This document shows, one piece after another, positions 19,959-61,596 of a stretch of DNA of 64,000 bases. Position 1 is the first letter of the stretch. Each line of letters begins with the position of its first letter. Below the pieces are notes generated by a model, which saw only the letters and a program-made list of their open reading frames with translations, searched no databases and was not told the origin of the DNA. This stretch comes from Arthrobacter beigongshangensis (lineage in GTDB: Bacteria > Bacillota > Bacilli > Bacillales_A > Planococcaceae): contig NZ_JADHDX010000010.1 in NCBI RefSeq assembly GCF_016820585.1, positions 1-64,000 of the forward strand, written 5' to 3'. A program made the position numbers and the translations under genes.

Positions 19959-19987
19959 AAAAGATATAGAAATTACATAGCCAAACA

Positions 19988-20120
19988 TAAAGGTGCCTCG
20001 CCATTAAGAACGAGGTTAAAAGGGAAGTCGGTTGAAGTCCGACACGGTCCCGCCACTGTAAGTGCCAGCTTGTCGTCAAACGATATGCACACAAGTCAGG
20101 AGACCTGCCTTTATGAAAAA
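19988..20120 (+). ncRNA. Cobalamin (B12) riboswitch
   Basis: The sequence shows the conserved parts of the adenosylcobalamin aptamer in order: AGGTGCC, TTAAAAGGGAA, the CACGGTCCCGCCACTGTAA core containing the B12 box, and GTCAGGAGACCTGCCT. A hairpin terminator follows at 20190-20211, so B12 binding most likely stops transcription of the salvage operon. Confidence 0.95.
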
Positions 20121-20189
20121 ACCGGTTGCTTACGAGGATAGGCTTGGTGGAAATCGGTGCATTAATGCGTCCGCATTTTTACTAAACAT

Positions 20190-20217
20190 TCCTCCGTACT
20201 CATACGGAGGATTTTTA
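20190..20217 (+). terminator. Riboswitch-controlled terminator
   Basis: A 9-bp perfect stem (20190-20198 with 20203-20211), a 4-nt loop and TTTTTATTT form an intrinsic terminator between the aptamer and cbiZ. It is the likely expression platform. Confidence 0.85.
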
Positions 20218-20341
20218 TTTGGAACAAAAAAAGGATAGATGAATGCTTTAATTTTTGCGGGAAACGTAGAAATTGAACCTTTTCTGTTCGATACGCCATT
20301 CAAAATCTAGACGCAATAACGAAGAAAAGGGGCAATGTGAC

Positions 20342-21112
20342 ATGCTACAAGGGGATAATTTAATAGGTGGCAACGGCAAGAAGTCTGAAGTAAAGTCTGT
20401 CACATTTGCTGATATGAAAGAAAAAACGACTCCATTTACGGTGACCGTCGATGATTTTACAGTGTCATCGGACTACGTCTCTTTACGGACGGCTGGTCCA
20501 TTGAAAACAATGTCCTCTGCAGTGCATAATGCGGGAACTGGCTGGTATCGTGCATTTGTCAATCGTCATGTCGACGCCAATTACGCTTACGATGATGCTA
20601 AAGCCGAAATGGCTAGTTATTTAGAGCGGCAGGGTTTTCATGGCATGGAGACGGTTGGCATGATGACAGCGGTGATGACAGAACATGTGGAAGTGGAATC
20701 GTACCAAGGTGATTTTGGTACGGTTTTAATCGCGGTGACGGCTGGAATTGGCAATGCGGTTGACGTGTCGAAAGCACTTACCCGCGACCGGGAGCAACGC
20801 ATCGGCACGATTAATACATGGATTATCATCAATGGCACATTATCCGACGAGGCATTTATTCAAGCAATGATTACTGCGACAGAAGCTAAAGCTAAGGCGA
20901 TGCAAACGGAAGCCATTCAAGACCCACTGACAGGTACTATTGCGACGGGCACGTCAACGGACAGCTTGCTTGTAGCGGCAACGCAGCAAGGCGAATATTT
21001 ATCCTATGCAGGGCCCATTACGCCACTAGGCAAATTGATTGGTCATGGGGTCTATGATTGTACTGCTCGAGCAATTCGTGCCTATAAACAAGCAAAGGGG
21101 TGGACAACGTGA
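20342..21112 (+). CDS. cbiZ: Adenosylcobinamide amidohydrolase CbiZ
   Basis: CbiZ cleaves the aminopropanol side chain from adenosylcobinamide to give adenosylcobyric acid, which CbiB can rebuild into a usable intermediate. The 256-residue product shows the family segments MSSAVHNAGTGWYRAFVNRH, GMMTAVM and TAGIGNAVDVSK, and a GTINTWIIING strand. The ATG at 20342 has AAAGGGG upstream at good spacing. It is the first gene behind the B12 riboswitch and overlaps cbiB by GTGA. Its presence marks cobinamide salvage rather than full synthesis. Confidence 0.93.
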   Translation: MLQGDNLIGGNGKKSEVKSVTFADMKEKTTPFTVTVDDFTVSSDYVSLRTAGPLKTMSSAVHNAGTGWYRAFVNRHVDANYAYDDAKAEMASYLERQGFHGMETVGMMTAVMTEHVEVESYQGDFGTVLIAVTAGIGNAVDVSKALTRDREQRIGTINTWIIINGTLSDEAFIQAMITATEAKAKAMQTEAIQDPLTGTIATGTSTDSLLVAATQQGEYLSYAGPITPLGKLIGHGVYDCTARAIRAYKQAKGWTT

Positions 21113-22068
21113 TACCTGCACATTTTATTGCGATTGCGATTGGTTTTTTACTGGACCGAATAATCGGTGATCCACAGACCTGGCCACATCCTGTTCGCTG
21201 GATAGGAGCGTTTATTTCTAAGCTGACATCCCTTTTGAATAAAGGACGTTTTCGCACTGGGAAAGGGGCACTAACGCTCTTTAGTATAGTCGGAATCGTT
21301 TTTATAATGGTCTTCATCATTGTCGCATTCGCTTATCAAATCAATTTATTTGTCGGTATTATTGTGGAAGCCATTCTGATTGCAATTGGACTGGCACAAA
21401 AAAGTTTACGTGATGCAGGATTAAGCGTTTACGAGCCGCTTGTTGCGAATGATTTACCGGAAGCGCGTAAAAAATTAGCGTGGATTGTCGGACGTGATAC
21501 TGACAAGCTACAGGAAAATGACATTGCGCGTGGGGTTATTGAAACAGTATCCGAAAATACGGCAGATGGCATTACGTCACCGTTATTTTGGGCGTTTTTA
21601 CTCGGTGCCCCAGGCTTATGGTTGTATAAAACGGTCAATACACTTGATTCGATGATTGGTTATAAGGATGAGCGCTATGAAAAGTTCGGCAAATTTTCTG
21701 CACGCGCAGATGATGTCTTGAATTTCATTCCGGCGCGGATTACGGGCTTTCTCATTATTTTTTATTCTCCAAATGAAGGCAAGCTAGGCTTGATGAAGCG
21801 CTTTGCAGGTTGGAACCGGGATGCTAGGCAACATCCAAGCCCGAACAGTGGTTTTTTAGAAGCGGCGACGGCTTGGCAATTAGGCGTGACGCTAGGTGGA
21901 AAAAGTACATATCGTGGCAAGGTATCTGAGCGGCCGGAAATTGGACCAGGCACAGTCCCACTTGCAGCAGCACATATTAAATTGACGATTAGGCAAATGC
22001 ATATTGTTGCCTTTACTTTTTGGCTAGTCCTCACTGTGATTGGAGTGTTTTTCTATGCAATTGCCTGA
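21109..22068 (+). CDS. cbiB: Adenosylcobinamide-phosphate synthase CbiB
   Basis: CbiB is an integral membrane enzyme that joins adenosylcobyric acid to aminopropanol phosphate. The 319-residue protein has several membrane helices. The family motifs are LLDRIIGDPQTWPHPVRWIG, ETVSENTADGITSPLFWA, KTVNTLDSMIGYKDERY and ARQHPSPNSGFLEAA. Translation starts at GTG 21109 after AAAGGGG, overlapping the cbiZ stop codon. The 3' end overlaps cobD by 14 nt. Confidence 0.96.
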   Translation: MIPAHFIAIAIGFLLDRIIGDPQTWPHPVRWIGAFISKLTSLLNKGRFRTGKGALTLFSIVGIVFIMVFIIVAFAYQINLFVGIIVEAILIAIGLAQKSLRDAGLSVYEPLVANDLPEARKKLAWIVGRDTDKLQENDIARGVIETVSENTADGITSPLFWAFLLGAPGLWLYKTVNTLDSMIGYKDERYEKFGKFSARADDVLNFIPARITGFLIIFYSPNEGKLGLMKRFAGWNRDARQHPSPNSGFLEAATAWQLGVTLGGKSTYRGKVSERPEIGPGTVPLAAAHIKLTIRQMHIVAFTFWLVLTVIGVFFYAIA

Positions 22069-23134
22069 ACACGGTGCTAACCCACATCATGTCTATGAGC
22101 GACTAGGCATTGACTTGCCAGCGCGTGTATTGGATTTTAGTGAGAATGTGAATCCGGCGGGTCCACCGCAAGCAGTTCGTGTGATGTGGCCGAATTTATT
22201 GGCAGAGATCGGGGCGTACCCTGATCCAGCCGGAGAGCCATTTATATCGGCAGTCGCTGATTTTCACAACGTTTCCAAGTCGCAGCTATTTGTCGGCAAC
22301 GGGGCGGCGGAGCTGCTGGCGCTTATCGCAGAACGTTATCGAGGCAAACGGGCGATTGTTGTCCATCCGACATTTTCGGAATATGAAGCGACATTGCATG
22401 CGAAAAATGTTGATGTCATCCGCGTCGTAGCCTCAGAAACAGACGGATTCAAGCTGCCTTTGAATGAGATCAAACAAGCGATGGTATCGGCTGCAGTTCT
22501 TTATGTATGTACACCAAACAATCCGACGGGCATGATGCCTGAACGCCGGGAGTTAACAGACTTAATTCGTTATGGTGCCGATGTGGGTTGTGACATTGTG
22601 TTGGATGAAGCCTTCATTGATTTTGTCGATGAAAAGCTGTCATTGATCTCGGCAATTAAAGAAAATCCACATGTCATCATTGTCCGTTCCATGACAAAAA
22701 TGTACGCCATTCCCGGCATCCGGCTTGGCTATGTTGTTGCGAATGAAACCGTGATTGAGGGCATAAAAGAACTGGCACCGCATTGGAATGTCAATGGCAT
22801 GGCGGCTCGGATTGGAGCGGTTTGTTTACCGGAAGAATCATTTAGGCAACAAGCGATTCAGCATAGCAATCGGCAACGTGAACAGCTTACCTCATTTCTC
22901 AAGTCGCATAACTGTACGGTGACGGATTCTGTGACGAATTTTCTAACGTTTAAGGTAGGACAAGGTCGAGATGCCAACAAGCTCTATTTGGATTTAGTAG
23001 AACGAGGGATTGTGCTCCGGCACTCCGAGAATTTCCGTGGTATGGACGGTCGCTGGTTCAGAATTGGCATGAAAAATGAAGCGGATATGGCTGTATTGAC
23101 AGAGGAGCTGGAGCGATGGTTCGCGGAAAACTGA
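22055..23134 (+). CDS. cobD: L-threonine-O-3-phosphate decarboxylase CobD
   Basis: CobD is a PLP enzyme of the class I/II aminotransferase fold that makes aminopropanol phosphate for CbiB. The 359-residue product shows LDFSENVNPAGPP at the N-terminus, CTPNNPTGMM, DEAFIDF, the PLP lysine in RSMTKMYAIPGIRLGY, and the carboxylate-binding arginine in WFRIGMKN. HisC is a relative, but the operon and the SENVNPAGPP start favour CobD. Start at ATG 22055, inside the end of cbiB. Confidence 0.93.
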   Translation: MQLPEHGANPHHVYERLGIDLPARVLDFSENVNPAGPPQAVRVMWPNLLAEIGAYPDPAGEPFISAVADFHNVSKSQLFVGNGAAELLALIAERYRGKRAIVVHPTFSEYEATLHAKNVDVIRVVASETDGFKLPLNEIKQAMVSAAVLYVCTPNNPTGMMPERRELTDLIRYGADVGCDIVLDEAFIDFVDEKLSLISAIKENPHVIIVRSMTKMYAIPGIRLGYVVANETVIEGIKELAPHWNVNGMAARIGAVCLPEESFRQQAIQHSNRQREQLTSFLKSHNCTVTDSVTNFLTFKVGQGRDANKLYLDLVERGIVLRHSENFRGMDGRWFRIGMKNEADMAVLTEELERWFAEN

Positions 23135-23691
23135 CGTTCATAAGTGGTGGTGTTCGTAGTGGGAAAAGTGGCTATGCGGAACGATTACTCGTTAATGAAG
23201 TGCAGCAAAATGGTGGCCGTTTGGTCTATATTGCTTCCGGTTTAGCAACGGATCGAGAAATGCAGGAGCGCATTGAGTGGCATCGGCAGGACCGTGCCTC
23301 TCAAAACTGGCTGACGCTCGAGAAGCCGACGAAGCTAAAGGAAGTATTGTCCGTTATTCAACAAGGTGATACTGTCTTATGGGATTGCTTAACAACCTGG
23401 CTAGCTAATGAATTATATGAAGGCTGGGAAACAGGAACACCATGCATCCAGCAAAACGGTTGCATGGAACAAAAAGCACAGCAACTATATGAAACGATTG
23501 ATGCGCTACTCTCTCAAGTTGCACATCTCGTGATTGTCTCCAATGAAGTGCTGGACGAGCTACCGTCAAAGGATGAAGAAACGAATCAGTATAGGCAATG
23601 GATTGGACAGATTCATCAACAACTCGTAGCAACAGCAGGTACAGCTATCGAGATGGATTATGGCGTAGCGACTTATTGGAAAGGGGAGTGA
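23116..23691 (+). CDS. cobU: CobU-type adenosylcobinamide kinase/guanylyltransferase with diverged C-terminus
   Basis: CobU phosphorylates adenosylcobinamide and transfers GMP to it. This 191-residue copy keeps the P-loop GGVRSGKS, the guanylylated-histidine region IEWHRQDRASQNWLTLE, WDCLTTWLANEL and the start of SNEV. After SNEV it departs from the family: the usual G.GIVP...R.FRD..G..NQ block is missing and is replaced by LDELPSKDEETNQYRQW. A second, shorter CobU-like protein lies downstream (25801-26205) and has that block. The two could be complementary (inference). It overlaps cobD by 19 nt. Confidence 0.85.
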   Translation: MVRGKLTFISGGVRSGKSGYAERLLVNEVQQNGGRLVYIASGLATDREMQERIEWHRQDRASQNWLTLEKPTKLKEVLSVIQQGDTVLWDCLTTWLANELYEGWETGTPCIQQNGCMEQKAQQLYETIDALLSQVAHLVIVSNEVLDELPSKDEETNQYRQWIGQIHQQLVATAGTAIEMDYGVATYWKGE

Positions 23692-23695
23692 ATTT

Positions 23696-24526
23696 ATGAA
23701 TGGACTTATGGTCTTAGGCACGGCATCAGATTCCGGAAAAACGATGATTTGTACAGCCTTATGCCGTATGTTATCCGACGAAGGTGTGCGTGTAACGCCC
23801 TTTAAATCGCAAAATATGTCTAGATTTTCCGCGACAACAGATAATGGCGAGGAAATGAGCCGTGCGCAATTTATTCAAGCGCTTGCAGCTAGAACGGTAC
23901 CAGCGATTGAGATGAATCCGATATTGTTGAAACCGGTGGCAGGCATGAAATCTGAGGTGTTTTTTTTCGGAGAGAAATTCGGCCCAGTGGCAGGAATGGC
24001 GTACCGGGAACAGTTTTTTAATCGGGCGATCGCAGCCATACAGACCTCACTTAACAAACTGGCGGAAAGCTATGACACAGTCATTATTGAAGGTGCAGGA
24101 AGCCCTGCTGAGGTAAATCTCAATGACCGTGAGATCGTCAATATGCGTGTGGCAGAAATTGCGGATGTGCCTGCTGTATTAGTGGCGGATATTGACCGCG
24201 GGGGCGCCATTGCATCGATTGTTGGCACACTTCAATTGCTCCCTCCCGCACACCGTGCGCGCGTGAAAGCGATTATCATTAATAAATTTCATGGGGACGT
24301 TTCCTTATTCCAAGAGGGCATTGAATTTATTGAAACGTATACAGGAATTCCCGTTGCAGGAGTGATTCCTTACAAAGTCGATCACGGCATTGAAGAGGAA
24401 GATGCAGATCGTCCGGTCATGTCTGCACCGCGTGGCGTCGATATCTATGACGAGTGGGCGGCCCATGTGAAGGCAAACCTCAATTGGCCGCTATTGACAG
24501 ACATTCTGTCGGAACCGAGGGAATAA
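23696..24526 (+). CDS. Cobyric acid synthase-like protein lacking the glutamine amidotransferase domain
   Basis: The 276 residues align by eye with the ATP-binding half of CobQ/CbiP: GTASDSGKTMICTALCR P-loop, PFKSQNM, NPILLKP, EGAGSPAEVNLNDREIVNMR, ADIDRGG, IINKFHGD. Full-length enzymes have about 500 residues with a class I GATase domain carrying Cys and His. Here that domain is absent. The sequence passes from GIEEEDAD straight to a tail (DIYDEWAAHVKANLNW) like the extreme C-terminus of normal CobQ, so an in-frame internal loss is likely. The frame is open and the gene is tightly packed in the operon, so it is probably expressed. It could use free ammonia, or may have taken another salvage role. 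Confidence 0.85.
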   Translation: MNGLMVLGTASDSGKTMICTALCRMLSDEGVRVTPFKSQNMSRFSATTDNGEEMSRAQFIQALAARTVPAIEMNPILLKPVAGMKSEVFFFGEKFGPVAGMAYREQFFNRAIAAIQTSLNKLAESYDTVIIEGAGSPAEVNLNDREIVNMRVAEIADVPAVLVADIDRGGAIASIVGTLQLLPPAHRARVKAIIINKFHGDVSLFQEGIEFIETYTGIPVAGVIPYKVDHGIEEEDADRPVMSAPRGVDIYDEWAAHVKANLNWPLLTDILSEPRE

Positions 24527-24527
24527 G

Positions 24528-25292
24528 ATGAATGGTATTTTGTTGGCACTGCAATTTTTTACAGCGATCCCGGTGAAGAAAGAGCTGCCGCTTGGTCGCA
24601 AGGAAGTGACGGCGATGTATGTGGCGCTACCATTTGTCGGAGCAGCAATCGGACTCGTGATGTATGCAGTATCGACCCTCATGTTAGACGTCGTACATGT
24701 TGGCCCACTTCTTGCCGCAGTATTCGTGCTGTTAGCGGGCATTGTATTGACCGGCGGCTTGCATTTGGATGGCTGGGCGGATACAGGCGATGCATTCTAT
24801 TCCTATCGGGACCGTGCCAAGCGCTTGGAGATATTGGATGATCCGCGTCTTGGCGCGTTCGGGACGATGGCACTTGTGCTGCTCATCGTTGTCAAAATCG
24901 CCTTGTTCCATGAAATTCTAATGCGCGGGACAGCAAATATCGCGTTGTTTATCGTTATTCCTTTTTTAGCTCGAGCTGCCTTGAATGTTTATTTCACAAC
25001 GGTTGGTCTTGCGAAAGATAAAGGAATTGCTCATTTTTTTAAGGAGAAGATGGCTGGCAATGTGGTCATTGGCTGCTCGGTGGCCGCTAGTGTGGTGTTG
25101 TTGGTAGCTGTTGGCTTATTGATAAATAGCTTGCTTCTACCAATTGGTTTGTTTGCTGTGCTGGCAGTTGCCCTTGTCGTGTTTCGTAGCTGGTCACGCA
25201 AGCATTTCGGCGGTGTCAGCGGTGACTTATGTGGGGCTTTCATCGAAGGAACGGAGGCTTTGTTATGGATGACCGTTTTGTGCTTCATGTAA
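24528..25292 (+). CDS. cobS: Cobalamin synthase CobS (adenosylcobinamide-GDP ribazoletransferase)
   Basis: CobS is a membrane enzyme that joins adenosylcobinamide-GDP to alpha-ribazole (phosphate) in the final assembly of cobalamin. The 254-residue product has six or seven hydrophobic segments. Family motifs are LQFFTAIPV, GGLHLDGWADTGDAF, DDPRLGAFGTMALV and the late GGVSGDLCGAFIEGTEA. The start codon lies 2 nt after the preceding stop codon, with GAGGGAA upstream. The 3' end overlaps cobC by 28 nt. Confidence 0.95.
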   Translation: MNGILLALQFFTAIPVKKELPLGRKEVTAMYVALPFVGAAIGLVMYAVSTLMLDVVHVGPLLAAVFVLLAGIVLTGGLHLDGWADTGDAFYSYRDRAKRLEILDDPRLGAFGTMALVLLIVVKIALFHEILMRGTANIALFIVIPFLARAALNVYFTTVGLAKDKGIAHFFKEKMAGNVVIGCSVAASVVLLVAVGLLINSLLLPIGLFAVLAVALVVFRSWSRKHFGGVSGDLCGAFIEGTEALLWMTVLCFM

Positions 25293-25849
25293 TCCGCCAT
25301 CTGCCGACCGCTGGCAATGAATTGCGCAAGTACATTGGCTGGACAGATGAACCGATTATAGCGACAGAGGCTAAGTGTCTGTTACCCGCATCATTCGTTG
25401 TAGGTAGCGATTTGTTACGTGCTAGGCAGACAGCCGCTCTTTATTTCCCAGAGGCGGCATATGAAGCAAATTCGAATTGGCGTGAATGTCATTTTGGCGA
25501 TTTTGAAGGAAAAACGTATGACGACCTTGAAAAGGATATGGACTATCGTCGGTGGATTGACGATCCTTATCAAAATGCACCGCGCGGCGGTGAAAGTTTG
25601 ATGGCGCTAGAACAGCGAGTACTATCCGCCTTGAAACAGGTTTCAAATGGGGCGGTGATTGTGACGCATGGTGGACCGATTCGGCTCCTGTTGACGAGGT
25701 TTTCACCAATAGACAAAGAGTTTTGGTCGTGGCCGATTCCGCATGGAACAGGTTATCGACTGGAGTGGGCCAGTGAACAAGCATTTGAGGAGGGACAGCC
25801 ATGCACGTCATTATCGGCGGTGCTCATAACGGCAAACGAGACTACGTGA
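25265..25849 (+). CDS. cobC: Alpha-ribazole phosphatase CobC-like (histidine phosphatase)
   Basis: This 194-residue protein of the histidine phosphatase (phosphoglycerate mutase) superfamily would remove phosphate from alpha-ribazole phosphate or cobalamin phosphate. The active-site motif is RHLPTAGN, with leucine where RHG is usual. ECHFGDFEGKTYDDLE, APRGGES and VTHGGPIRLL supply the other catalytic residues. GGAGG lies seven bases before the ATG at 25265. It overlaps cobS upstream and the short CobU-like gene downstream. Activity is inferred from the operon. Confidence 0.85.
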   Translation: MDDRFVLHVIRHLPTAGNELRKYIGWTDEPIIATEAKCLLPASFVVGSDLLRARQTAALYFPEAAYEANSNWRECHFGDFEGKTYDDLEKDMDYRRWIDDPYQNAPRGGESLMALEQRVLSALKQVSNGAVIVTHGGPIRLLLTRFSPIDKEFWSWPIPHGTGYRLEWASEQAFEEGQPCTSLSAVLITANETT

Positions 25850-26205
25850 ATGCGATGTTGGCGAGTCGAAAAATCGAGTGGCTCGAAGGTTCTATACTGA
25901 GTGACCGGCAGCAATTGGACACGAATCAGGTAATCGTTGTTGCCGGCATTGAGAAGTGGCTTGCAGAGACAAAGCTGTCAGAAGCAGATGCGATTGACTA
26001 TGTGTTGGCAATCGTAGCGGGTCGAGAGGCGATTGTAATTTTAACCGACATCGGCCGAGGAATTGTACCGATAGATGCACAGCACAGAAAGTTGCGGGAT
26101 GCTTGCGGCCGACTCTATCAGCGGTTGATGGCGGAGGCAGATGAAGTGACACGGATTTGGTATGGCCTTGCACAAACTTTAAAGAAAAGGGGAGAAGGAT
26201 TATGA
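25801..26205 (+). CDS. Short CobU-like protein with altered P-loop
   Basis: This 134-residue protein begins MHVIIGGAHNGKRDYV, a CobU-like P-loop in which the Ser/Thr after the lysine is replaced by Arg. Its second half matches the CobU C-terminus that the first copy lacks: ILTDIGRGIVPIDAQHRKLRD, then GRLYQRLMAEADEVTRIWYGL. The histidine region and the DCLT segment are missing. The protein may be a catalytically weak relic, or may pair with the CobU encoded at 23116-23691. It overlaps cobC by 49 nt and pduO by 4 nt, so it is kept within the coupled operon. Confidence 0.75.
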   Translation: MHVIIGGAHNGKRDYVNAMLASRKIEWLEGSILSDRQQLDTNQVIVVAGIEKWLAETKLSEADAIDYVLAIVAGREAIVILTDIGRGIVPIDAQHRKLRDACGRLYQRLMAEADEVTRIWYGLAQTLKKRGEGL

Positions 26206-26783
26206 AAATTTATACACGTACAGGGGATAAAGGGCAAACGAGTTTAATAGGTGGACGTGTTGACAAGGATAGTTTGCGAGTAGAAGCGTATGGCACGATG
26301 GACGAATTGAATTCATTCGTCGGAAAGGCAATGACAGAGCTGGATACGACTATTTTTGCAGATATGCTGGAAGATTTAGAAGCTATTCAAAATGAATTAT
26401 TTGACGGCGGCGGTGACCTCGCAAACGTTATGAAAGAGCGCCACTATAAATTAGCAGATGAGCCGATTGAAGTATTGGAACAGCGCATCGACAAGCTGAT
26501 GGAGGAAGCACCGGAGCTTGAGCGTTTCATATTACCGGGTGGAACACCGGCCGCGGCAACGCTCCATATTGCACGAACAATCGCGAGACGCGCGGAACGT
26601 CAAACCGTAACACTGATGAAGGCAGAAGAGGATGTTTCACCAGTTGTGCAACGTTATTTGAATAGACTCTCCGATTATTTTTTTGTCGCAGCACGCATTG
26701 CCAATGCACGGGTGAATGTACCCGATAATGAATATGTCCGCAGCGCAAAAGTATTCAGGACGGATAAGAAAAAGGAGAACTGA
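26202..26783 (+). CDS. pduO: PduO-type ATP:cob(I)alamin adenosyltransferase
   Basis: This enzyme adds the 5'-deoxyadenosyl group to cob(I)alamin or cobinamide and makes the coenzyme form used by mutases such as IcmF. The 193-residue product starts MKIYTRTGDKGQTSL, the PduO/MMAB ATP-binding signature. It continues with VEAYGTMDELNSFVG and RTIARRAERQTV, where the conserved arginines lie. GGGGAGAAGG precedes the ATG at 26202. The 45-nt longer reading is not supported. Confidence 0.96.
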   Translation: MKIYTRTGDKGQTSLIGGRVDKDSLRVEAYGTMDELNSFVGKAMTELDTTIFADMLEDLEAIQNELFDGGGDLANVMKERHYKLADEPIEVLEQRIDKLMEEAPELERFILPGGTPAAATLHIARTIARRAERQTVTLMKAEEDVSPVVQRYLNRLSDYFFVAARIANARVNVPDNEYVRSAKVFRTDKKKEN

Positions 26784-26787
26784 AAAA

Positions 26788-27273
26788 ATGCGATTGAGAA
26801 GAATGACATTAACGGCATTATTCGTGGCATTATGTGCTGTTGGCGGTTTAATTAAAATCCCATCGGCTGTTGGCTCATTAGCGCTCGACACAGTACCAGC
26901 TCTTGTATCGGCGGCGTTTTTGCCACCTGTTTTTTCGGGGATTGCATCGATGTTAGGACATACGGCCTCTGCGATGTATGCGGGATTTCCATTAGGACCA
27001 TTCCATGTGATTATCGCACTTGAAATGTTTGTGATCATACTGATTTTTGCACGCATGCATCAAGCGGGCTTCGCCATTATGAAATGGGTGTTTTTCGTCA
27101 TCGCCAATGGCTTGCTCGCACCATTACCATTTTATTTCTTAGTTTCACCGGCATTTTTCATCGGGATATTACCGTCGATAGTTGTTGCAACTGTGCTGAA
27201 TGCAGTCGTTGCGGCAGTCGTTTTACCTGCTCTTAAGCATGTTGCGGTAAATCGCATAGGAGCATTGCGTTGA
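26788..27273 (+). CDS. cblT: ECF transporter S component, probable CblT (alpha-ribazole/DMB uptake)
   Basis: This 161-residue, five- or six-helix protein has the form of an energy-coupling factor substrate-binding subunit: a short basic start (MRLRRMTLTALFVALCAVGG), TVPALVSAAFLPP, GMLGHTASAMYAG-like glycine segments. In B12-regulated loci of Listeria and Geobacillus an S component named CblT is paired with the alpha-ribazole kinase CblS. The next gene is CblS-like, so alpha-ribazole or dimethylbenzimidazole is the likely cargo (inference). A cobalamin/cobinamide S component is the alternative. The EcfAAT module would be elsewhere. AAGGAG precedes the ATG at 26788. Confidence 0.72.
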   Translation: MRLRRMTLTALFVALCAVGGLIKIPSAVGSLALDTVPALVSAAFLPPVFSGIASMLGHTASAMYAGFPLGPFHVIIALEMFVIILIFARMHQAGFAIMKWVFFVIANGLLAPLPFYFLVSPAFFIGILPSIVVATVLNAVVAAVVLPALKHVAVNRIGALR

Positions 27274-27965
27274 GAAATGCAATCGAAATTGGCAATGGTT
27301 TTATTGTCACAACGGATAATTCGGGCGGCATTGGGGAGAAACCAGGCGATGTTGTTGCTGCCCCAGACCATGTCACGGCTTATTTCGCCGCGCGTGTCGC
27401 CCTGCTTGAACAATGGGCGAGTCATGCAGAACCTGTTACTGTGATGATCCATAACTTTAGCGGTAGCGCGAGTTGGGACAAATATGTGGCAGGTGTGACG
27501 AATTTATTTGAAGAGGCGGGGCTTGCGGTTCCGACAATTAGCGGTAGCACGGAAACGAATATGGAGCTTGTGCAATCAGCGATGGCGGTGACCATGATTG
27601 GTGAGCGAAAAAAGTTAGCACTTGTGGATGAGGTGGTTTGGTGTACATACGGTATCCCACTTGTTGGCCATGAAGTGCTAGAGCGTAAGGAAGAAGTTGC
27701 GTCACTTCGGTTACTTCGAAAGGCGTTAGTAGATAGTATTGTCCAACAAATTTGGCCGGTCGGTTCAGGCGGGATTTTGCAAGAGGCTCGTCACATGACA
27801 GGCGATGAAACGGCGCAGGTCGAAACCGTACTAGACCCAACGAAGTCCGCGGGTCCGGCAACAGTCGTCTTTCTGGCGATTCCCGCTGAGCGAATAACCG
27901 AAGCGGAAGTGCTATTTGGCAAATTGCTGAATGAAATACAAATCACTAGCAAAAAACCTGCGTGA
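27270..27965 (+). CDS. cblS: Probable alpha-ribazole kinase CblS (AIR synthase-related)
   Basis: The 231-residue product resembles the N-terminal half of PurM-type proteins, with VTTDNSGGIGEKPGDVV supplying the acidic ATP-binding segment and HNFSGSASWDKYVAGV and SGSTETNMELVQSAMAVTMIGE further along. CblS of Listeria and Geobacillus is an AIR-synthase-related kinase that makes alpha-ribazole phosphate and replaces CobT. No cobT is present here, which supports the call. It starts at TTG 27270 after AGGAG, overlapping the cblT stop codon as TTGA. It is the last gene of the operon. Confidence 0.75.
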   Translation: MRNAIEIGNGFIVTTDNSGGIGEKPGDVVAAPDHVTAYFAARVALLEQWASHAEPVTVMIHNFSGSASWDKYVAGVTNLFEEAGLAVPTISGSTETNMELVQSAMAVTMIGERKKLALVDEVVWCTYGIPLVGHEVLERKEEVASLRLLRKALVDSIVQQIWPVGSGGILQEARHMTGDETAQVETVLDPTKSAGPATVVFLAIPAERITEAEVLFGKLLNEIQITSKKPA

Positions 27966-61452: not shown

Positions 61453-61540
61453 GGCGTAATTGCGTCCGAATTTTGAATTGTGCCCACAGGACGTGGGTAT
61501 GCAGTCGTTGCGACAGGACGTCGCGCCCTTAGACTGCCGG
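61453..61540 (+). ncRNA. Tandem AGGAC-loop hairpins upstream of upp (candidate CsrA-type element)
   Basis: After GGCGTAATTG (61453-61462) come two hairpins with the same loop: CCCAC-AGGAC-GTGGG (61483-61497) and GCGAC-AGGAC-GTCGC (61510-61524). The second is enclosed by GCAGTC (61501-61506) and GACTGC (61532-61537). GGA in a hairpin loop within ACAGGACGT resembles the CsrA consensus ACARGGAUGU. It lies upstream of the upp promoter, so it may belong to the 3' end of the EAL transcript. Confidence 0.5.
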
Positions 61541-61596
61541 AAATTGACTCCCTTCAAAACTTATGGGTGTTTGACGTGCCTGAAGCAGCATGCTTC

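Follow-up and report, generated by a model that had tools for sequence, protein, structure and literature searches.

A cobyric acid synthase homologue without a glutamine amidotransferase domain, retained in a Sporosarcina corrinoid salvage operon as a probable ammonia-fed amide synthetase

The gene at positions 23696-24526 of the window (the whole 64,000-nucleotide stretch of DNA analysed here) encodes a CobQ-derived protein that has lost the glutamine amidotransferase (GATase) domain; its sequence and those of its relatives suggest that it is a corrinoid amide synthetase working without a GATase, probably on free ammonia, and still doing the job of a cobyric acid synthase. We give about even chances to the broader proposal that an ammonia-fed, glutaminase-free cobyric acid synthase originated five or more times within a single salvage operon and took over cobyric acid synthesis in the Sporosarcina genome G054 and in Bacillus wudalianchiensis. 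Because the short protein lacks the defining CobQ feature, the GATase, we place it in a CobQ-derived GATase-less subfamily, which may nevertheless work like CobQ. The parts of the gene are as follows.

23696-24526, plus strand: gene for the GATase-less CobQ-derived protein (276 aa), open, no internal stop
23696-24406, plus strand: CobQ ATPase domain, residues 1-237 (NF001989 match to protein residues 3-238; alignments)
23717-23743, plus strand: P-loop GTASDSGKT, residues 8-16 (G8, T9, S11, G14 and K15 at least 97% conserved in long and short forms)
23807-23914, plus strand: CobQ-specific insertion relative to CobB, about residues 38-73 (one CobB aligned)
23825-23827, plus strand: codon 44, Phe in the window protein, Asn in 63 of 63 distinct long CobQs
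24446-24511, plus strand: retained CobQ C-terminal tail, residues 251-272, predicted helices (tail HMM, AlphaFold model)

In the window protein the ATPase domain is joined directly to the CobQ tail, with GATase_3 absent in between; a Pfam scan returned matches to AAA_26/CbiA only, and no GATase_3 domain (PF07685) with its catalytic Cys and His. The score of 335 bits against the NF001989 model 'cobyric acid synthase' (cut-off 273, model positions 2-236 of 480), together with the conserved core residues, identifies the ATPase domain as CobQ-type, and the TIGR00313 (CobQ/CbiP) score of 297.9 bits lies under the cut-off of 309.9. An HMM of the long-form tail was matched by 53 of 55 distinct short proteins at E<=1e-3 (about 2e-8 for the window tail) and by none of 550 shuffled tails at E<=0.05; the two short tails without a match, L049 and L099, are frameshifted or have the tail in another frame. 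Constraint is weaker on the tail than on the ATPase (pN/pS 0.319 versus 0.174), with a value of 0.376 for the linker. Thus the preliminary description of this DNA, in which a conserved CobQ ATP-binding half was followed directly by a CobQ tail with the GATase gone, is borne out by the domain models, the core residues and the tail HMM. Identity as a CobB/CbiA a,c-diamide synthase was rejected (TIGR00379, 42.9 bits against a cut-off of 261.4, with MNPILLKP opposite the aligned CobB's GPDYIDP), as was identity as the dethiobiotin synthetase BioD (NCBIfam TIGR00347, 32.5 bits against a cut-off of 83.3), and a PHROGs search gave no match. As a separate observation, NF001989 passes a GATase-less protein though no more than half of the model is covered, which makes it an annotation trap.

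AlphaFold models the short protein with good confidence (pLDDT 89.3, pTM 0.90); within the tail, residues 251-270 form mainly helix at pLDDT 96-97. Among the VIA-align matches listed, the closest solved fold was BioD 1dae (Z 19.7, 210 aligned residues, rmsd 3.1, 19% identity, model residues 1-267); these best 50 matches comprised BioD entries, some of them fused, and CTP synthase entries. No CobQ-like chain came up when solved structures were searched by sequence. Judged from the alignment ranges only, the GATase would be an insertion ahead of the last helices of a BioD-like fold, so that its loss would restore a single-domain enzyme.

To compare residues, 55 distinct short proteins (41 from the genus and 14 from outside it) were set against 63 distinct long ones, leaving out L084 and L105 because of their odd lengths. 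The P-loop residues, K37, Q39, N40, N74, P75, E132-S136, E139, N141, N149, M150 and N196-F198 are at least 97% conserved in both forms. Asn44, invariant in the long forms, is changed in 54 of the 55 short ones (all 41 from the genus and 13 of the 14 from outside it), and E53, R56, E63 and Q7 are likewise relaxed. Most of the residues changed in short forms sit in the CobQ-specific insertion, of which residues 44-63 are absent from the one aligned CobB, and the window protein does not keep the set of insertion residues, Asn44 included, that is invariant in long forms. These changes either speak against unchanged catalysis or mark adaptation to another nitrogen donor. Loss of Asn44 accompanies loss of the GATase in 4.8 of 5 independent pairs, an agreement that is not significant (sign test, median p 0.0625). 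The idea that Asn44 is the equivalent of the catalytic Asp of CbiA was dropped because the one-CobB alignment sets GPDYID against MNPILLKP, making residues 38-73 a CobQ-specific insertion. One clade of the genus has EGAGST and DISKGG instead of EGAGSP and DIDRGG.

The short form is the rule in Sporosarcina. CobQ matches were found in 66 of the 68 genomes that make up our genus sample: 63 carry an open short form, one (G059) a frameshifted short form, and two (G002 and G015) only a full-length protein, while the search of all 68 gave no CobQ match in G039 or G045. A stop was reported inside the match in 8 of the 63, and in the four of these that were read (G062, G063, G032 and G030) it is the natural stop of a 272-aa protein. 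Such recurrence excludes the sequencing or joining error that the preliminary description had named as a way for its reading to fail. Over the 30 best genus loci, the median dN/dS is 0.083 for short CobQ (68 of 435 pairs used, dS<1.5), compared with 0.144 for cobU and 0.142 for cobS; a value below those of both neighbours points to constraint on the gene, and the core motifs are conserved as well.

Comparison with CobQ of related genera, also proposed at the outset, uncovered the same deletion, reached through separate losses and found beside full-length forms. Proteins of about 484-507 aa (446 in L070) occupy the same place between cobU and cobS in Planococcus, Planomicrobium, Neobacillus, Robertmurraya, Alkalihalobacterium and others. 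Short forms occur within the family beyond Sporosarcina (G338, G424, G210 and G167), in G079, and in Neobacillus soli, N. mesonae, N. kokaensis, Bacillus renqingensis, Oceanobacillus sp. Castelsardo, Compostibacillus humi, Bacillus wudalianchiensis, Lentibacillus jeotgali and Virgibacillus halodenitrificans, the last with its tail in another frame. A first tree of the ATPase domain (64 chosen rows: loci L031-L110 and the window, minus L049, L091, L097 and 14 genus rows) has five changes between long and short, at least four of them forced by well supported branches; a second (67 rows picked by hand, residues 42-57 masked) has six, of which at least five are so forced. These five to six changes at the same operon site indicate that the GATase was lost repeatedly and in place, with the tail kept.

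In two long salvage forms the GATase nucleophile elbow, GxCGG, is altered from Cys to Ser (GISSG in L070, which also has no tail, and GISGG in L074); PMC5871853 describes this elbow and the Cys/His pair. A general relaxation of selection on the GATase of salvage long forms was rejected as a candidate, since the GATase/ATPase distance ratio of 2.28 in salvage forms (842 pairs, including the four loci L100, L104, L108 and L109 outside the cbiZ operon) does not differ clearly from the 1.93 in other long forms (142 pairs) and the two sets look alike in three of the four distance bins. The GATase of nine Planococcus-type loci is still under constraint (dN/dS 0.111, 5 pairs), but less so than the ATPase (0.047, 6 pairs).

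The operon to which the gene belongs runs cbiZ-cbiB-cobD-cobU-[short cobQ]-cobS-cobC-cobU2-pduO.

19974-20126, plus strand: cobalamin riboswitch upstream of the operon (RF00174, 84.5 bits)
20273-21112, plus strand: cbiZ, adenosylcobinamide amidohydrolase, with a short btuD remnant, in frame from about 20342 (PF01955)
21100-22068, plus strand: cbiB (PF03186, TIGR00380)
22040-23134, plus strand: cobD-type threonine-phosphate decarboxylase (PF00155; TIGR01140 285.9 bits, just under the 290.6 cut-off)
23116-23691, plus strand: cobU, ending 4 bases before short cobQ (PF02283)
24528-25292, plus strand: cobS, starting 1 base after short cobQ (PF02654)
25229-25849, plus strand: cobC-like phosphatase (PF00300)
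25801-26205, plus strand: second, short CobU-like protein, 134 aa (PF02283, 36.8 bits)
26157-26783, plus strand: PduO-type cobalamin adenosyltransferase (PF01923)

The gaps on either side of the gene and the riboswitch match agree with the earlier account of an open frame packed between cobU and cobS under a B12 riboswitch. No GATase was found among the ten operon proteins scanned with Pfam and NCBIfam. The window's genome (3.65 Mb, 49 contigs, 99.9% complete) gave no GATase_3 match at E<=1e-3, and thus neither CobB nor a full CobQ was found in it.

Several further features of the locus were observed. The short CobU-like protein is kept beside a normal CobU in nearly all such salvage operons. 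Two proteins are encoded after pduO (26716-27965), one a membrane protein (ORF 26716-27273) and the other of 231 aa with no Pfam or NCBIfam match; they may be CblT and CblS (alpha-ribazole transport and kinase). Compared with L246 of the nearest relative, G053, the window operon, in the region 19974-21112, is without btuF, btuC and the BtuD ATPase part of a btuD-cbiZ fusion; about 25 btuD codons are left in frame ahead of cbiZ, and a second BtuC-like gene (56% identity) lies on contig C14. A Bacillaceae-1 sRNA match is located at 61483-61548 on the minus strand (RF01690, 60.8 bits).

Genomes that combine CobB with the short form bear most directly on function. Strong GATase_3 matches occur in 14 of the 68 genus genomes, with two ORFs in six of them (taken as CobB and full CobQ) and one in the other eight. 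This single ORF is CobB, as judged by GPDYID in five genomes and by similarity in the rest, and in all eight a short CobQ is present and a full CobQ absent. Seven of the eight, among them the window's nearest relatives G053 and G052, have a btuF-btuC-btuD-cobB-cobA operon, and no cbiC, cbiD, cbiG or cbiJ was found in the 19-kb stretches analysed. Neobacillus mesonae and N. kokaensis each combine btuFCD and CobB with a single strong GATase_3 and a short form, bringing to nine the genomes with a btuFCD-cobB operon and the short form as the sole CobQ found. In these nine operons (L248-L254 and L258-L259) cobA adjoins in eight, and no corrin-ring genes lie beside them. It is possible that the btuFCD-cobB operons serve the salvage of corrinoids without even the a,c-amides.

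The eighth genome, G054, is a single contig of 4.39 Mb with a de novo corrin cluster in which CbiJ, CbiC, CbiD, CbiG and CobB are open ORFs, and with a complete salvage operon that includes the short gene; its sole CobQ match is the short form and its sole GATase_3 match is CobB. The cluster is syntenic with that of G002 at 79-82% identity, cobQ excepted: relative to G002, about 30 bases of each end of cobQ are left as a scar, and the next gene follows at 86% identity. Between the two clusters dN/dS is 0.017-0.059 at dS 0.9-1.7 (nine genes with a value; none for cbiJ and cbiC), resembling pairs that kept cobQ, although the value spans time before as well as after the loss, and the loss of cobQ could be the start of decay. 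Bacillus wudalianchiensis (L065), which represents a separate GATase loss, likewise combines a de novo cluster with a short CobQ and a single strong GATase_3 (CobB); in this species and the two Neobacillus, at least two of the assemblies being drafts, full CobQ was excluded by GATase_3 search only. On the simplest reading of these gene complements, the step that follows CobB is carried out by the short protein. A counterpoint is the window's own genome, in which the GATase_3 search found no CobB.

A broader view came from 398 genomes of the class, of which 155 have a CbiZ match at E<=1e-12 and 63 at E<=3.4e-40; one locus was read for each of the 63, and CobQ was searched at E<=1e-30. A contiguous cbiZ-cbiB-cobU-cobS operon is present at 43 of the 63 loci (G231 without a cobD match), with a full CobQ in 14, a short CobQ in 14 and none in 15. 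Another 18 loci (CbiZ alone, CbiZ and PduO only, or a contig edge) stand outside this table, as do G403 (other order), G336 and G079, whose short-CobQ operon was read with its CbiZ elsewhere. Genomes of the 28 operons with CobQ have no other CobQ in 27 cases, the exception being G063, and of the 15 operons without it, 12 belong to genomes with CobQ elsewhere (place listed for seven) and three to genomes with none (G039, G381 and G389). This complementarity has a Fisher p of 3.5e-7 (43 operons in a hand-made table with relatedness ignored), the 12 fall in five families, and 40 of the 43 genomes have some CobQ, in the operon or elsewhere. No CobQ was found in the class-sample search of G336 (L189) either, where CbiZ, at E 7.5e-38 just past the cut, lies in a reordered cluster (cbiB, cbiZ, cobC, cobS, cobU, cobD); in G039, G381, G389 and G336 the function of CobQ is therefore dispensable. 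Within the genus, G002 (full CobQ in its de novo cluster) and G015 (full CobQ and CobB) have complete salvage operons without the short gene, but G027, G028, G031 and G063 keep both forms (p 0.02 for the genus comparison). Since four of the six genus genomes with a full CobQ retain it, the short form is not a mere substitute. The earlier suggestion that a cobinamide-salvaging operon would not need full amidation of the ring is too simple, given the 40 complete-operon genomes that keep CobQ and the several CobB genomes, two of them with a de novo cluster, that have the short form only. A link to urease was also considered and set aside: urease alpha is clear in 10 of 15 genomes with the short form, 3 of 14 with the long form and 1 of 3 lacking CobQ, and it lacks independent support because just one of five short-form genomes outside the genus has it.

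From these comparisons we infer the amidation reaction, the ammonia source and the choice of side chains as follows. Removal of the GATase would leave a single-domain, ATP-dependent enzyme of dethiobiotin-synthetase-like fold, in whose conserved site ATP and a corrinoid side-chain carboxylate would bind to form an acyl phosphate, as in the established chemistry of CobQ and BioD. Ammonia from solution would then attack the acyl phosphate to give the amide, free ammonia (or ammonia from an unrelated source) replacing glutamine. CobQ may accept ammonia in vitro, a property not used here as evidence. In the window operon the short protein would complete under-amidated corrinoids, after which CbiB, CobU and CobS would rebuild the cofactor; in related genomes it would replace full CobQ in the step that follows CobB, both in corrinoid salvage and, for two genomes, in the de novo pathway. 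Of the preliminary description, the anatomy and the proposed amidation with free ammonia stand up best, with amidation itself the inferred part.

Among the alternatives, the protein could have become a corrinoid-binding ATPase with some other salvage task, such as repair of one side chain or a role as chaperone or kinase. The gain of a new function had also been foreseen. It is conceivable because almost every short form has Asn44 and adjacent residues of the CobQ-specific insertion altered, and because the short form persists beside a full CobQ in four of six genus genomes; retention of the CobQ core and the genomes in which the short form is the sole CobQ found beside CobB render it unlikely. 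A connection with CbiB, an integral membrane enzyme acting after CobQ (PMC7242693, PMC10449867), is less probable again. Here the ATPase would turn the f-propionate of cobyric acid into an activated acyl phosphate, to which CbiB attaches aminopropanol phosphate, and the GATase would be superfluous because no ammonia is involved. That order of action, the near-universal presence of some CobQ in complete-operon genomes and the fall of the GATase losses in CbiB-containing operons are consistent with such activation, but three complete operons and the G336 cluster have no CobQ found with them, and the short-form-only genomes with CobB and a de novo cluster would be left unexplained unless the short form also amidates.

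That the gene is merely a remnant on its way out, CobQ being needless for cobinamide salvage, would account for the occurrence of every stage at one operon place, from full length through the Cys-to-Ser forms L070 and L074 and ATPase only to absence; it is nevertheless very improbable for a gene whose dN/dS is below that of cobU and cobS and which is open in 63 of 68 genus genomes. Stand-alone GATases that serve a separate synthetase are known, as in MurT-GatD (PMC5871853), and the ammonia might come from an unrelated glutaminase, or from a class I GATase subunit, whose gene lies elsewhere. The preliminary description had listed such a partner as a finding that would overturn it. GATase_3, the CobQ-type family and the one searched genome-wide, gave no match in the window's genome, and the scanned operon proteins include no GATase. 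These results speak against such a partner, which is a highly improbable source of the ammonia. Amidation with free ammonia is the preferred reading.

The short protein shares with CobQ/CbiP (NF001989, TIGR00313) the ATPase domain, the CobQ-specific insertion, the C-terminal tail and the operon context, and differs in having no GATase_3, a replaced Asn44 and a score under the TIGR00313 cut-off. BioD, which works without a GATase, is its closest solved fold (1dae), but identity is only 19%, the bioD model score is under its cut-off, and short CobQ lies in a B12 operon. NAD synthetase is of another protein family and acts on another substrate than CobQ. It provides the precedent for amide synthetases found both with a glutaminase domain and lacking one, having glutaminase-fused as well as single-domain, ammonia-using members (PMC3376133); the single-domain form is judged the likely ancestor there (PMC3376133), whereas short CobQ lost its GATase secondarily and repeatedly. 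MurT-GatD offers a synthetase separated from a CobQ-like GATase (PMC5871853), but the search of the window's genome revealed no CobQ-like GATase. Judged by titles and the starts of abstracts, none of the CC-licensed PMC papers listed in searches for a GATase-less CobQ/CbiP or its salvage context reports such a protein; subscription literature falls outside this scope.

With the NCBI model passing the short protein as 'cobyric acid synthase', a metabolic reconstruction may treat it as CobQ with the domain loss unseen. The GATase-free single-domain form might serve as a minimal enzyme for cell-free B12 synthesis, and the natural series of full CobQ, dead GATase, ATPase only and gene gone provides a way to study the change of nitrogen donor in amidotransferases. 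If our reading is correct, nature can dispense with the glutaminase half of a B12 enzyme that textbooks describe as glutamine-dependent, and that half would have been lost repeatedly at one operon site with the ATPase half still under selection.
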